Source: Halobacteriales archaeon QH_7_66_36 (GTDB taxonomy: Archaea > Halobacteriota > Halobacteria > Halobacteriales > Haloarculaceae). Taken from it: 64,000 nt of DNA. Shown piece by piece: positions 3,596 to 44,271 of this stretch. Numbering within the stretch: the first letter of the stretch is position 1; each line of letters starts with the position of its first letter. Under the pieces are notes generated by a model that worked only from the letters and a program-made list of their open reading frames with translations, made no database searches and was not told the DNA's origin. The translations under genes were made by a program, and so were the position numbers. The stretch spans positions 1 through 64,000 of the forward strand of contig PXQV01000003.1 of NCBI GenBank assembly GCA_003021175.1. The letters are read 5' to 3'.

Positions 3596-4399
3596 TTACT
3601 CGCGGACGATGATGACGCCTCGGCGAAACACGCGGTCGTTGGGGACGACGTACTCCTCGCCCTCCGCTTCGATGTGGGTGACGAACGTGTCCACCTCTTG
3701 AACGATGCCGCGATGGCCGTCGAGTTTCACCTCGTCCCCGATGGCGTACGGCTCCGTCAACAGCAGATACACGCCGGCCGCGGCGGCCGCGAGCAGGTCC
3801 TTCATCGCCAGCCCGCCGATGAACACGAGGCCAAACACGTACGCCGCCAGCAGCACGAGCAGCGGTCGCGTCGCGATCCCGATCTGTGAGAGCGCGATTA
3901 GGGAGGCGATGTAGAAGACGCTGTACTTGGTGAGTAGCGGGAGAACGCCGGCCTCGGGCACCTTCACGCCGCGGAGGCGTTCGCGGAGGTACAGTTCGAG
4001 CTTGTCGCCGACGATGACACCGACGACGACCACGAGTGCGGCGATGAACAGCTGCCGGAAGAAGTCGGTGATCCGGAGCGTCAGCAGATCCTGCGGGATG
4101 GTGTGGACGATTCTGAGCGTGATCAGCCCGCCGACGACGAGGACGAACAGTCCACAGAGATTCGCGAGCACGCCGACGGTCGACGTGCCGAGTCGGCGCG
4201 CGGTTCGTTCGAACGGCGTCCCGGCGACGGCTTCCGGGATGTCCAACTCCCGGAGCGCCCCCCTGACGTACCGACGGGTGACCGCGCCGGCGACGAGAGC
4301 CAACAGGAAAATGAGAATGCCGACGAACAGGTCGACGCGTTCGGTGAGCAGTTTGCGGAGCGCGGTGAGTAGCTCCGTGACGGTTATCTGCCCGACCAT
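3596..4399 (-). CDS. MscS-family mechanosensitive ion channel
   Basis: Small-conductance mechanosensitive channel, an osmotic safety valve in the cytoplasmic membrane. The 267-residue protein has several N-terminal membrane segments (GILIFLLALVAGAV, GVLANLCGLFVLVVGGLI, FIAALVVVVGVIVG), a Gly/Ala-rich pore-lining TM3-like helix (GGLAMKDLLAAAAAGVYLL) and the beta domain with DGHRGIVQEVDTFVT and VVPNDRVFRRGVIIV, which match the MscS cytoplasmic signature. It is the second gene of an operon with dacZ, one base downstream of that gene's stop, so channel and c-di-AMP synthase are made together. Confidence 0.93.
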   Translation of the reverse strand: MVGQITVTELLTALRKLLTERVDLFVGILIFLLALVAGAVTRRYVRGALRELDIPEAVAGTPFERTARRLGTSTVGVLANLCGLFVLVVGGLITLRIVHTIPQDLLTLRITDFFRQLFIAALVVVVGVIVGDKLELYLRERLRGVKVPEAGVLPLLTKYSVFYIASLIALSQIGIATRPLLVLLAAYVFGLVFIGGLAMKDLLAAAAAGVYLLLTEPYAIGDEVKLDGHRGIVQEVDTFVTHIEAEGEEYVVPNDRVFRRGVIIVRE

Positions 4400-4400
4400 C

Positions 4401-5210
4401 TCAGTACGCCTCCGGGTCGAGTTCTAAGATGAGCTCACCACCTTGGAACGCGCGGACGAGACTGTCCGACTCGGAGAGCACGATACAGACGGCGTTCGTC
4501 TCCCGCGTGATACCGGCCGCGGCCATGTGGCGCGCGCCCAACCCCTTGGGGATGTCCGTCCCCTCTGCGGAGGGTTCGAGGTAGCGGTACGCGCTCACGA
4601 TCTTCCCCGAGTCGGAGACGACGAACGCGCCGTCCAGCCGCGAGAACTCCTTCAACATCACGTTCACGATCGGGTCGCCGACGTGGACGTGACTCTTCTC
4701 GAAGGGGTTGTACGAGAGGGGCCGAGACTCGTTCATCACCTTGCCGGCGTCGCCGACGACGAACAGCGCGCCCACCTGCTTCCCCTTCTGGCCCTTCTTC
4801 CCGAGTTCGATGGCCACCTCGAACACGTCGCGGATGACGTTCGGGTCGGCTCGCGACTCGGAGAACAGCTCGTAGACGCCCGACTCCGAGAACTCGCCGG
4901 CGTCGACCCGTGCGACGGTGTCGATGCCGTCGTCGAACACGCGGGTGGCACAGGCGACGACCTGTTCGTCGTCAAGGTAGCCGTCGTCCAGCGCACCCTC
5001 AAGCCCGAACCGGATCCGCTCGCGAATGTCCGGGAAGTCGAGCGGCAGCTCGACGAACGAGTCGGCCTCGACGCCGTTCTCTCGGGCGATGACGATGACG
5101 GGCACCTCCACGTCCGCGAACGCTTTGTAGTAGCTTCTGCTCGGGGCGAAGAGACACACGGCGTCGACATCTTCGACGATTCCGCCGAGCAGGTCGCGGA
5201 GGTCAGCCAT
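4401..5210 (-). CDS. dacZ: Diadenylate cyclase DacZ (c-di-AMP synthase)
   Basis: Condenses two ATP into the second messenger c-di-AMP; DacZ is the archaeal class and is known from Haloferax to influence osmotic fitness. The 269-residue protein has an archaeal N-terminal regulatory half (SRSYYKAFADVEVPVIVIAREN) and a C-terminal DAC domain with the catalytic DGAFVVSDSG motif (Asp193-Gly-Ala) and the RHM motif (Arg227-His-Met) that replaces the bacterial RHR, as expected for DacZ. The chosen start is MADLRDLL at 5210; an upstream in-frame ATG would run into the promoter shared with rnp3. It is co-transcribed with mscS. Confidence 0.95.
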   Translation of the reverse strand: MADLRDLLGGIVEDVDAVCLFAPSRSYYKAFADVEVPVIVIARENGVEADSFVELPLDFPDIRERIRFGLEGALDDGYLDDEQVVACATRVFDDGIDTVARVDAGEFSESGVYELFSESRADPNVIRDVFEVAIELGKKGQKGKQVGALFVVGDAGKVMNESRPLSYNPFEKSHVHVGDPIVNVMLKEFSRLDGAFVVSDSGKIVSAYRYLEPSAEGTDIPKGLGARHMAAAGITRETNAVCIVLSESDSLVRAFQGGELILELDPEAY

Positions 5211-7370: not shown

Positions 7371-7417
7371 ACGCTCACGCAGGGCGGAGCGTGCAAAACG
7401 GTAGCGCCGTCACCGCA

Positions 7418-7617
7418 GTGTTCAGTGAAGCGGTTGCTGGGGGAAGGAACCGCTCCGGGTGGGACTGGAAGGGGCTGTGCGCTCGACGAAGACGGGCGAC
7501 GTAAGCAGCGAGGGACCACCGGTCCCTCGGGCCGCTCGCGCGGCATCGCCGCGCGAGGAGACCGCAGGAGGGAGCGGCGCGACCGACGAGGACCGCAGCG
7601 AGCCCATCGAGTCGAAT
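7418..7617 (+). repeat. Interspersed repeat element, copy 1 (5' half, degenerate)
   Basis: Begins with GTGTTCAG and, 39 nt later, carries GTGGGACTGGAAGGGGCTG (starting at 7460), one or two changes from the core of copies 2-4. It continues into perfect short hairpins: GGGACC/GGTCCC with a 3-nt loop, and CGCGCGGC/GCCGCGCG around ATC. The usual 3' core with CTTTCTACACC is missing, so the copy ends in or near the ABC-transporter gene fragment. An open frame runs through it into the ATPase but looks fortuitous. Confidence 0.7.
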
Positions 7618-8034
7618 GTGATAGACGTTCGCGACCTCCGGAAGGAGTACGGCGACTTCGCGGCCGTCGAGGGGTCGACGTTCGCCGTCGAACCGGGCGA
7701 GGTGTTCGGCGTCGTCGGGCCGAACGGCGCGGGCAAGACGACGACGCTGAAGTCGCTCGCCGGCCTGCTCGAACCGACGAGCGGCGGCGTCGAGGTGGCC
7801 GGTCGCGCTCCCGACGACGCCGACGCACGGGGACAGCTCGGCTTCCCCCCCGAGGAGTCGCCGTTATACGAGGAGATGACCGCCCGGTCGTATCTCCACT
7901 TTTTCGCCGACCTGTACGACGTGCCGGACGCGACCGCAACCGAGCGCATCGAGTCCACGCTCGACCGGCTGGAACTCGACCACCGCGAACGCCCGCTCGG
8001 CGACATGTCGAAGGGGATGAAACGGAAGGTTGCC
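7618..8034 (+). pseudogene. ABC transporter ATP-binding protein, 3'-truncated
   Basis: Starts at GTG 7618 (MIDVRDLRKEYGDF), the natural N-terminus of an ABC-2-type ATPase. Walker A GPNGAGKTTTLKSLAG is intact, as is the Q-loop region GQLGFPPEESPLYEEMT. The signature segment is reached (LGDMSKGMKRKVAI), and then the sequence changes abruptly: Walker B, the D-loop and the H-loop are absent. The DNA passes directly into the middle of an inositol-monophosphatase gene in another frame. Without Walker B the product cannot hydrolyse ATP. The partner permease that normally follows is also missing, consistent with a deletion. Confidence 0.85.
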
Positions 8035-13490: not shown

Positions 13491-13572
13491 GAGCGAACGT
13501 GTGGGGCGACCCACAAAGCGGCGTCGCCACGAACGCACCTTGGCCGGGGAGCGACCTCTATTGGTATCGGCG

Positions 13573-13968
13573 GTGTTCGAATGGGTGGGTCGTCGCTCGA
13601 CTGGGCAACTGCGGTGGGCGGGACTGAAAGGGGCCGTTATCGGCGGCTTCGCCGCCGATTGCTCGGGAGAGCGCCACTCTCCCGGTGGACGCTACGGGAA
13701 GCCCGGCGTTCGGAAGACGCGGAGCGTCTTCCGCAGCCCAGCAGCAATTCGCGCGGCACAGCCGCGCGAGGACACCGCACCGCAGCCCGACCGACGGGCG
13801 GGGGAGGCGCGCAGCGAGGGCCGCTCGCGGCCGTGGGCCGTCTGTTCGCGGCACCGCCACTCACACGGCCCGTGGACCGACGGTCCGCGCCGCGCGCGAC
13901 CGTAGCACCCGGGGGCTTTCTCCACCTCATTGGCTGCCTGTTCTCCGGAGTCAGTTTTATAAATTACT
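13573..13968 (+). repeat. Interspersed repeat element, copy 2 (longest)
   Basis: Fills most of the gene-free stretch 13491-13977. It opens with GTGTTCG and has the core GGGACTGAAAGGGGCCG 43 nt in (core block 13616-13636). Four perfect hairpins follow in series: GGCGGC/GCCGCC, GGGAGAG/CTCTCCC, GGAAGACGC/GCGTCTTCC and CGCGCGGC/GCCGCGCG. The 3' core CCCGGGGGCTTTCTCCACC lies at 13908-13926. GCTACGG near 13693 and CCGTAGC near 13900 can pair. The expected terminal GAACAC is not seen. No protein-coding gene is apparent; open frames through it are fortuitous. Confidence 0.8.
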
Positions 13969-13977
13969 GCCGCCTGA

Positions 13978-41658: not shown

Positions 41659-42465
41659 TCACTTCAGCCCGAGATCGTTGCTCATGGAGTTGCCGGGCCG
41701 GGGGACACCCTTCGCCGTGTACGTCTCGCCGGTGACGAACGAGGCCGCCGGCGACCCGAGGAACACCGCGAGGTCGGCTATCTCCTCCGGGTAGCCGATG
41801 CGGCGGTACGTCTCCCCGCGCTCGGGGATGTCGGACTCGTCGATGCCGAGCGTCTCCGCAACGCCGGGCGTCTGGACGAGTCCCGGCGCGATGCAGTTGA
41901 CCCGGACACCGTCGTCGGCCCACTCGGTCGCCAGCGTCTCCGACAGTCGGATGATCCCCGCCTTCGCCGCGCCGTAGTGGCTCTCCCCGGGAGCGGCATG
42001 CTGGCCGTTGACCGACGCCATGTTGATGATGACGCCGCCGTCGCCGTCTTCTGACTTCCGTAGATACTCGCCGGCGACCTGCGAGCAGCGGTAGGTGCCG
42101 CCGAGATTCAGGTCCGTGACGGCCTCCCAGCCGCCCTCGGAGATATCCTCGAAGTTCGCGACGAACTCGCCGCCGGCGTTGTTGACGACGATGTCGAGAC
42201 CACCCAACTCGTCGGCGGCGGCCGCGAAGAACGCCGTTACGTCCTCGCGTTCGCGCACGTCACACTCGGTCGCGAACGCGCGGCCCGGCACGTCGGCCTC
42301 GTTGATGTCGTCGGCGACGGGCCCGACCCGGTCCATCGACCGCGAGCAGATCGCCGCGTCCGCGCCCGCGGCGGCGAACGTCTCCGCGATGGCCTGTCCG
42401 ATACCCTGCGATGCGCCCGTGACGAGGACGTTCGCGCCCTCGACGCCGAACTCCGGAGCTTGCAC
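41659..42465 (-). CDS. Short-chain dehydrogenase/reductase (SDR)
   Basis: A 268-residue NAD(P)-dependent classical SDR: NVLVTGASQGIGQAIAETFA (TGxxxGxG), DIVVNNAGGEF (NNAG), NMASVNGQHAAPGESHYGAAKAG with Ser, Tyr and Lys of the active site, and VNCIAPGLVQTPG. C-terminal VTGETYTAKGVPRPGNSMS. Probable substrate an alcohol or 3-oxoacyl compound; not determinable. The repeat copy 3 lies 78 bp upstream of its start. Confidence 0.93.
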   Translation of the reverse strand: MQAPEFGVEGANVLVTGASQGIGQAIAETFAAAGADAAICSRSMDRVGPVADDINEADVPGRAFATECDVREREDVTAFFAAAADELGGLDIVVNNAGGEFVANFEDISEGGWEAVTDLNLGGTYRCSQVAGEYLRKSEDGDGGVIINMASVNGQHAAPGESHYGAAKAGIIRLSETLATEWADDGVRVNCIAPGLVQTPGVAETLGIDESDIPERGETYRRIGYPEEIADLAVFLGSPAASFVTGETYTAKGVPRPGNSMSNDLGLK

Positions 42466-42542
42466 ACCAGAGTCCGCCCCGCGCGGGGACTTCGCTCTGT
42501 CGCTCCCGGTCAGGGTTGGAACGTCCGATGTCTAACGCAGTA

Positions 42543-42752
42543 GTGTTCAGCTAAGAGCACCTATAGAGACGAGGAGGGTGACGAGGTGTAGAAAGCCCCC
42601 GGGCGCTGCGGTCGCGCGCCTCGCTGCGCTCCGCAGCCTCTCTTCGGTCGGCTTCCGGTGCTTGCGTCGTCGGGCTTCCCGCAGCGCCCGGCCCCTTTCA
42701 GTCCCACCCACCACGGGTTCACGGCCGAGCGACGATCCGCTTGTTTGGACAC
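42543..42752 (-). repeat. Interspersed repeat element, copy 3
   Basis: Oriented on the minus strand, filling most of the 338-bp gene-free stretch between SDR and FAH genes. Ends are TGGACAC/GTGTTCA (42746-42752 and 42543-42549), a near-perfect inverted pair. The core (GTGGGACTGAAAGGGGCCG on minus) is 42689-42707, and the other core GAGGTGTAGAAAGCCCCCG begins 42583. Arms 42591-42611 and 42679-42699 can pair over 18 of 21 bases, the only mismatch a three-base GGG/GGG internal loop. An inner hairpin CTGCG/CGCAG is present. Confidence 0.85.
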
Positions 42753-42803
42753 CACCGTCGACGCCGTATAAACCCTTATGAATCCCCACGTCGACCCGCC
42801 ACT

Positions 42804-43559
42804 GTGCGACGCATCCGCTTTCACGACGGCGACGACGTTCGCCTCGGTGAGTTGGTCGACGACGAGATTCACGCGTTCCCGAACGACGGCAGTCGCATCG
42901 TCGGTGAGGAGACGTTCGACCCGAGCGCCGTCGACGTGCTCCCGCCCTGCGAGCCGTCGAAAATCGTCTGCGTCGGTCTCAACTACGCCGACCACGCGGC
43001 CGAGCGCAACTCCGAGATTCCCGACCGGCCGCTGCTGTTCCTGAAGCCGCCGAACACCGTCGCGGCCCACGGCGACGACCTCACTCTGCCGACCGGTAAG
43101 GAGCGTATCGACCACGAGGCCGAACTCGGCGTCGTCATCGGCGAGCGCGCCTCCGAGGTCGATGCTGACGACGCCATGGACCACGTCGCGGGGTTCACCT
43201 GCGTCAACGACGTGTCGAACCGCGACGACCAGGACGTGGAGCAGAACTGGGTCCGCGGGAAGGCGTTCGACGACAGCGCGCCCATCGGGCCGGTGCTGGC
43301 GACGCCCGACGAGGTGCCCGCGGACGCCAGCGTCACCTGTCGCGTCAACGGCGAGACGACGCAGAACTCGACGCGCGACCAGTTCATCTTCGACGTGGGC
43401 GAACTCGTCGCGGAGATAACGACGTACGTCACCTTGGAGTCCGGCGACGTGATCTCGACCGGGACGCCGGCTGGCGTCGGCCCGCTGTCGGACGGCGACG
43501 AGGTGGAAATCGAGGTCGAAGGCGTCGGCACGCTCCGTAACACCGTCACCATCCCGTAA
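42804..43559 (+). CDS. Fumarylacetoacetate hydrolase (FAH) family protein
   Basis: A 251-residue FAH-fold hydrolase or decarboxylase: KIVCVGLNYADHAAERN, RPLLFLKPPNTVAAHGDDL, the metal-binding IDHEAELGVVIGE, FTCVNDVSNRDDQDVEQNW, and GDVISTGTPAGVGPLSDGDE. Such enzymes cleave C-C bonds in aromatic or keto-acid breakdown (acylpyruvate, 5-carboxymethyl-2-hydroxymuconate routes). Start GTG 42804 (MRRIRFHDGDDV). It lies between repeats copies 3 and 4. Confidence 0.92.
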   Translation: MRRIRFHDGDDVRLGELVDDEIHAFPNDGSRIVGEETFDPSAVDVLPPCEPSKIVCVGLNYADHAAERNSEIPDRPLLFLKPPNTVAAHGDDLTLPTGKERIDHEAELGVVIGERASEVDADDAMDHVAGFTCVNDVSNRDDQDVEQNWVRGKAFDDSAPIGPVLATPDEVPADASVTCRVNGETTQNSTRDQFIFDVGELVAEITTYVTLESGDVISTGTPAGVGPLSDGDEVEIEVEGVGTLRNTVTIP

Positions 43560-44055: not shown

Positions 44056-44099
44056 CCGGAGCGGGGGGATGTATTCGTGTTCGACTGTGCTGCCGGGTA

Positions 44100-44220
44100 G
44101 TGTTCAATTAAGAGTGGATCCGGAGAGTGGAAGGACAACGATGTGTAGAAAGCCACCGGCCCCTTTCAGTCCCACCCAGCACGGGTTCTCGGCCGGGCGA
44201 CGCCCCGCGTATCTGAACAC
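44100..44220 (-). repeat. Interspersed repeat element, copy 4 (minimal, 121 bp)
   Basis: Minus-strand orientation. Perfect 7-bp terminal inverted repeat GTGTTCA (44100-44106) and TGAACAC (44214-44220). Core GTGGGACTGAAAGGGGCCG runs 44175 down to 44157, and the second core GATGTGTAGAAAGCC at 44140-44154 abuts it almost directly, so the copy lacks the variable hairpin insert of copies 2 and 3. Distances from ends to cores equal those in copy 3 (43 and 48 nt). Confidence 0.85.
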
Positions 44221-44271
44221 CGCCGCCGTCCGAGTGACAACTCCTAATGGCCGGCTTCACCTACCAAGGGT

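Follow-up and report, generated by a model that had tools for sequence, protein, structure and literature searches.

A hairpin family dispersed in haloarchaeal genomes keeps its folded shape and central mismatch while its stem letters change

We found a family of hairpins that kept its folded shape and a central mismatch while the letters of its stem changed. The copy from which it is described here (copy 3) was located in the window, that is, the whole stretch of 64,000 nucleotides that was analysed, on contig C3 of the 2.6-Mb haloarchaeal genome QH_7_66_36 (G000, called below the own genome). The family was widespread in salt-loving archaea and apparently undescribed. It was probable that its members were non-autonomous mobile hairpins, recognised by shape as a folded single strand and spread both in trans and by recombination.

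A repeat finder confirmed the long stem that the earlier note had pointed out in copy 3, with arms at 42591-42611 and 42679-42699, 67 nt apart and paired at 18 of 21 positions (86% complementary). The fold consisted of an outer helix (GAAAG at 42591-42595 with CTTTC at 42695-42699), a 3x3 internal loop and a covarying stem of 13 perfect pairs (stem S1, 5' arm at 42599-42611, partner at 42679-42691), and it was better than all 200 shuffles on both strands (z of -3.1 on the plus and -3.8 on the minus strand). The internal loop was symmetric as the note had said, but on the plus strand its letters were CCC (42596-42598) facing CCC (42692-42694), and GGG/GGG was found only on the complement. The conserved unit of the family occupied 42591-42708 of the plus strand, where it scored 102 bits with covariance model R1, and its conserved 3' box CCCCTTTCAGTCCCACC (42692-42708) lay partly outside the hairpin. 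Throughout the family the unit measured about 118 nt and ran GAAAG-CCC-stem-inner helices-variable tip-inner helices-stem-CCC-CTTTC-AGTCCCRCC. Around the unit was a MITE-like element (42540-42754, plus strand) with a left inverted end GTAGTGTTCAG at 42540-42550 and a right inverted end near 42744-42754. This element was located in the gap of a divergent gene pair. By their motifs, the minus-strand gene at 41659-42465 probably encodes a short-chain dehydrogenase and the plus-strand gene at about 42804-43559 a protein of the fumarylacetoacetase family. Each unit carried conserved G runs on its minus strand (GGGYGGG, GGGG and GGGG, for example at 42716-42591 of the window), which could form a quadruplex around the hairpin in the potassium-rich cytoplasm, a point offered as an idea only.

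The conservation of the shape was counted in 195 units collapsed to 113 at <90% identity, with the 5' anchors picked blind to pairing. At the three loop positions C faced C in 108, 113 and 111 of these 113 non-redundant units, and the outer helix was Watson-Crick in 96-100%. Stem positions 10-20 were paired in 69-91% of the units versus 32-56% expected. The stem was also put to a shuffle test on a tree, with 60 simulated alignments (our own R-scape-like script, not R-scape itself): four stem pairs were above every simulated value (E < 0.017), two more had E < 0.1 and several were below significance; the four strongest pairs overall were all in register. A further alignment, A1, was prepared from 78 units whose arms were distinct and contained 67 of them; the 78 had been drawn from 100 units picked for complementary arms and a length of 78-116 among 259 boxes. 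The 11 units left out before alignment differed in their inner modules, had a tip that was very short or very long, or carried the inner part reversed. In this partly arm-selected alignment 91.9% of the cells were paired versus 71.3% after shuffling, both-sided changes were found in 25 of 34 pairs over five helices, and the covariation score was 0.490 versus 0.148 shuffled. The inner helices, on which there had been no selection, covaried too and were set apart by conserved unpaired motifs. Thus, significant covariation was found in a deep alignment, and conserved structure, as proposed in the note, was supported well beyond one copy.

Of the 391 genomes sampled from the class, 207 contained the exact 17-mer box, and the control gave zero. 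In a phylum sample none of the 101 'same phylum' genomes had the box, versus 5 of the 19 nearer genomes, and all matches listed for named genomes had haloarchaeal titles. Copy number was patchy, with 59 exact boxes in the own genome versus 1 to 3 in three congeners of the sample. Searches against Rfam (4227 families) gave nothing over the gathering threshold in the window except two tRNAs, and no match at E up to 5 at 42500-42800. A literature search with the exact letters of the box retrieved two chance hits and no relevant paper, and topic searches retrieved no recognised description of such a hairpin family. A phage search gave two chance matches only, and a plasmid search with the short form gave no match.

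Within the window there were four matches to the 20-mer box, versus 0.04 expected by chance. Besides copy 3, they belonged to a short-form copy without the hairpin body (44097-44222, plus), a composite copy with extra hairpin modules (copy 2, 13572-13971, minus, outer limits approximate) and a partial fourth copy whose box had the CTTCC form (about 7415-7618, minus, left limit uncertain). The GAAAG/CTTTC and GCTACGG/CCGTAGC pairings that the note had reported for copy 2 (box 13617-13635, minus) were indeed kept, but its 3' arm was interrupted by an inserted 51-nt double-hairpin module. The entire own genome had 152 boxes in 2.6 Mb (19-nt box, up to 3 mismatches), and the reversed box pattern gave 0 matches there under the same search. 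Among the 113 non-redundant boxes examined in this genome, 12 were short forms without the body, one of them an exact deletion between two CCGG at the stem bases, and 38 had the 51-nt double-hairpin module before the box. This module (for example, 13640-13690, minus) lay between the stem and the outer helix and formed two small hairpins, whose loop letters varied. In some copies of the own genome a GGAAG/CTTCC subfamily replaced the GAAAG/CTTTC pairing: the outer helix was GAAAG/CTTTC in 65 copies, GGAAG/CTTCC in 10 and mixed GGAAG/CTTTC in 2, it was broken (GAAAG/CTCTC) in 6, and the 5' anchor was not found in 27. Five loci (L153, L162, L206, L208 and L233) had another inner module, such as ACATATC...GATAGGGGTCGCTCAG, within the same outer ends, suggesting that the inner parts were exchangeable. 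Loci L121, L122 and L123 showed family-type inverted ends and no recognisable box; these were possibly decayed or divergent copies.

The frame of the own-genome copies ended in TAGTGTTCAG...CTGAACAC, and both terminal inverted ends, as in MITEs, were present in 71 of the 113 copies examined. Target duplications of about 9-11 bp accompanied 23 of these 71 two-ended copies, counted as at least 8 of 11 equal flank bases, for which 0.45 of 71 was expected from re-paired flanks. Copy 3 (42540-42754) had no clear target duplication, and values were low (2 to 7 of 11) for the eight short forms tested. The MITE ends were mostly absent around the units of other genera, where the carrier may therefore differ. 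Lone ends, seven stretches and transposase loci were examined for a parent transposon, and no end pair was found around a transposase; the single DDE_Tnp_1 gene of the own genome was without the family ends. At the gap of copy 3, three congeners had other sequence with no box. A site in genome G332 that seemed to be cleanly empty was rejected, as it looked like a deletion scar that kept the left end.

Comparison with genome G392 was possible at 17 orthologous sites with flanks 87-96% identical, and the unit had the opposite orientation at 4 of them. In all 14 pairs that could be delimited the 5' arm differed, in three of them by one base (L285, L296 and L308), and element identity was 81-88%; the limits of two further pairs were not definable. 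Since the flanks were largely coding, part of the element divergence may be intergenic drift. The site of copy 3 had a different stem type in G392. Moreover, Haloarcula-type genomes shared a dimer (about 325 bp, 99% identical) that lay in opposite orientations between flanks with an identity of about 86%, and its limits were the inverted ends AGCCAGAAAGCCCC/GGGGCTTTCTGGCT. Taken together, the orthologous sites and this dimer showed that cassettes were swapped and flipped in place, and gene conversion via the repeated ends was the plainest reading of how they were exchanged. In a separate comparison, L017 (about 385-990) versus L302, some 600 bp beside a conserved gene were present in the own genome and absent from G392. 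The ends of this segment resembled those of an IS605-type or PATE element. Because the stem was mostly swapped at orthologous sites, and its arms had mostly not mutated together, the difference between GCTGCGG (copy 3) and GCTACGG (copy 2) was by itself no proof of selection at this site; the compensatory change cited in the note compared mobile paralogous copies. The mobile frame, the invariant loop as the key feature and the spread through the class were not part of the note.

On haloarchaeal plasmids, where nearly all matches listed were outside annotated genes, the results on a link between the unit and an OB-fold gene were mixed. At 16 of the 20 places examined among the hairpin matches listed it was located about 430-620 nt upstream of an OB-fold gene, in a single orientation; the gene was missing at H18, H31, H34 and H56. 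This gene had 285-299 codons with an RPA-like OB fold at the C-terminal end, and most plasmids with both hairpin and gene were typed as MPF_T in PLSDB. When 29 loci found through the protein, including contig C1 of the own genome, were scanned with the model, 16 had a match, which at L426 lay far from the gene, and the hairpin was often in a divergent form. A count by eye at E below 1e-60 also gave full-length homologues of the protein in half of the box-free genomes examined (10 of 20), and the gene was near 3 of 114 contig loci with dispersed copies. Between hairpin and gene there was a further structured region, about 450 nt long (z of -8.9 for one whole leader). This conserved, strongly foldable leader occurred in several families on plasmids (L385, L386, L389-L395, L397 and L399-L404) and on contig C1 of G000 near 3776-4669 (L410). 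Its covariation term in the leader alignment was close to zero, its C-A and G-U mismatches (20 to 21) showed no asymmetry, and Rfam returned three chance-level matches only. It was possible that this leader represented a new structured RNA or single-strand DNA region.

We propose that the unit would be kept in shape by a protein that recognises the single strand in its folded form and reads the fixed ends and the mismatch, not the stem sequence. The copies may have spread in two ways: a transposase would act in trans on the MITE frame, and the repeated ends would serve for recombination or gene conversion. A stem that was free to change beside a mismatch that was not leads to the prediction of a shape-specific binding protein, and since the plasmid hairpin lies in front of the RPA-like OB-fold gene, our leading guess is that the recognising system handles single-stranded DNA.

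The strongest rival, which we consider doubtful though well within reach, was that the unit was an RNA, read from the minus strand as 5'-GGYGGGACUGAAAGGGG...GGGGCUUUC-3', and was selected as a small structured RNA or part of a transcript. Among the pairs of A1 predicted on both strands, CA/AC mismatches numbered 76 versus 39 GU in plus-strand letters (binomial p 0.0007 with relatedness ignored), as if G-U were tolerated on the minus strand; in the main stem the counts were 33 versus 8, in units whose 5' anchors were picked blind to pairing but which were then kept only above a minimum of paired positions. The minus strand also folded slightly better than the plus strand. If the unit acted as RNA, the mismatch asymmetry would favour the complementary strand. 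However, the sequences were related, 9 of the 33 main-stem cells came from one stem-end position, and 19 units of the own genome and G392 alone gave 4 versus 3, that is, no asymmetry. Strand-biased mutation could yield the same CA/AC excess, and no promoter motif was recognised by eye in the consensus flanks. Gene calls from a home-made acidic-protein predictor for loci L129 and later placed the box between genes at 122 of 130 non-edge places (60 tandem, 44 divergent and 18 convergent gaps), and relative to tandem genes 25 units had the same and 35 the opposite orientation, with no clear strand preference. Outside the own genome the unit stood alone or in tail-to-tail pairs. There were 23 such pairs within 80 nt among the 148 boxes of L129-L242 from other genomes, 22 of them spaced 17-29 nt, and no head-to-head pairs; the own-genome loci had one tail-to-tail pair. 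The neutral orientation and the inversion in place lean towards a DNA element rather than an RNA.

Rather unlikely, in our estimate, was a further reading, where the GAAAG-CCC ends would be orientation-blind, structure-recognised recombination sites, and cassettes would be exchanged or inverted via single strands with the RPA-like OB-fold protein of the plasmids. The plasmid hairpin would then be an archaeal equivalent of a folded single-strand promoter or transfer origin before an ssb-type gene. Somewhat less credible still was the absence of any selection, with quasi-palindrome correction (hairpin-templated repair) and gene conversion re-matching the arms. The stems did change as blocks and whole cassettes at orthologous sites, mosaic arms with mismatches existed, and G-U and C-A intermediates were few. 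However, such correction would also wipe out the CCC/CCC mismatch, which was kept in 108-113 of 113 units, and the covariation extended to inner helices set apart by conserved unpaired motifs. It was very improbable that these stable hairpins in intergenic DNA were transcription terminators or 3'-end stabilisers dispersed near genes, since orientation was neutral and the boxes were not enriched in convergent gaps, which held 18 of the 122 places, whereas 75 of all 313 gaps measuring 150 nt or more were convergent.

More than half of the haloarchaeal genomes sampled contain this structured element, which offers a handle on the spread of small transposase-free archaeal repeats, and the plasmid locus ties the hairpin shape to an RPA-like gene. 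Among known systems, integron attC sites also have a variable stem, fixed ends and an unpaired central loop and are recognised as a folded single strand. The hairpin shared these three features of the stem, the ends and the loop, and its ends were unlike those of attC. In the part of PMC11541004 compared here, the Frpo/ssi elements are single-stranded promoters upstream of ssb genes of conjugative plasmids. At most of the plasmid places examined the hairpin likewise preceded a gene of single-strand-binding type in fixed orientation, but it had no recognised archaeal promoter motif, and its dispersed chromosomal copies were almost all without such a gene. REP and BIME elements, as described in the sections of PMC3733652 used, are high-copy, intergenic imperfect hairpins that also form opposite-orientation pairs; however, REPs measure 20-40 bp versus about 118 nt for the hairpin, and the phyla named for them in those sections are bacterial. 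A GTAG preceded the hairpin in most own-genome copies and was not conserved in the 113 units of other genera. Mobilisation of the RAYT/IS200 type was rejected, as PF01797 showed no association: 17 of 25 genomes rich in boxes had it, and so did 13 of 20 without a box. By these two features, the GTAG tag and the link to a Y1 transposase, the hairpin is not a REP of the RAYT type. In its general behaviour it nevertheless resembles REP and MITE elements. Its ends and target duplications make it a MITE in the own genome, where no parent was found. Among haloarchaeal repeats already described, the closest, compared by description rather than by sequence, were those of Haloquadratum walsbyi (including HqIRS). 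Its MITEs, PATEs and SMRs are short and transposase-free like the hairpin, SMR-A being about 110 bp with inverted ends, and the portion of PMC3119063 consulted calls the spread of SMRs enigmatic. The hairpin resembled them in size, host group and lack of a transposase, and its MITE frame in the own genome carried target duplications. Compared with that portion of the account, the covarying stem, the invariant loop, the class-wide box, the tail-to-tail pairs and the inversion in place were found for the hairpin only.
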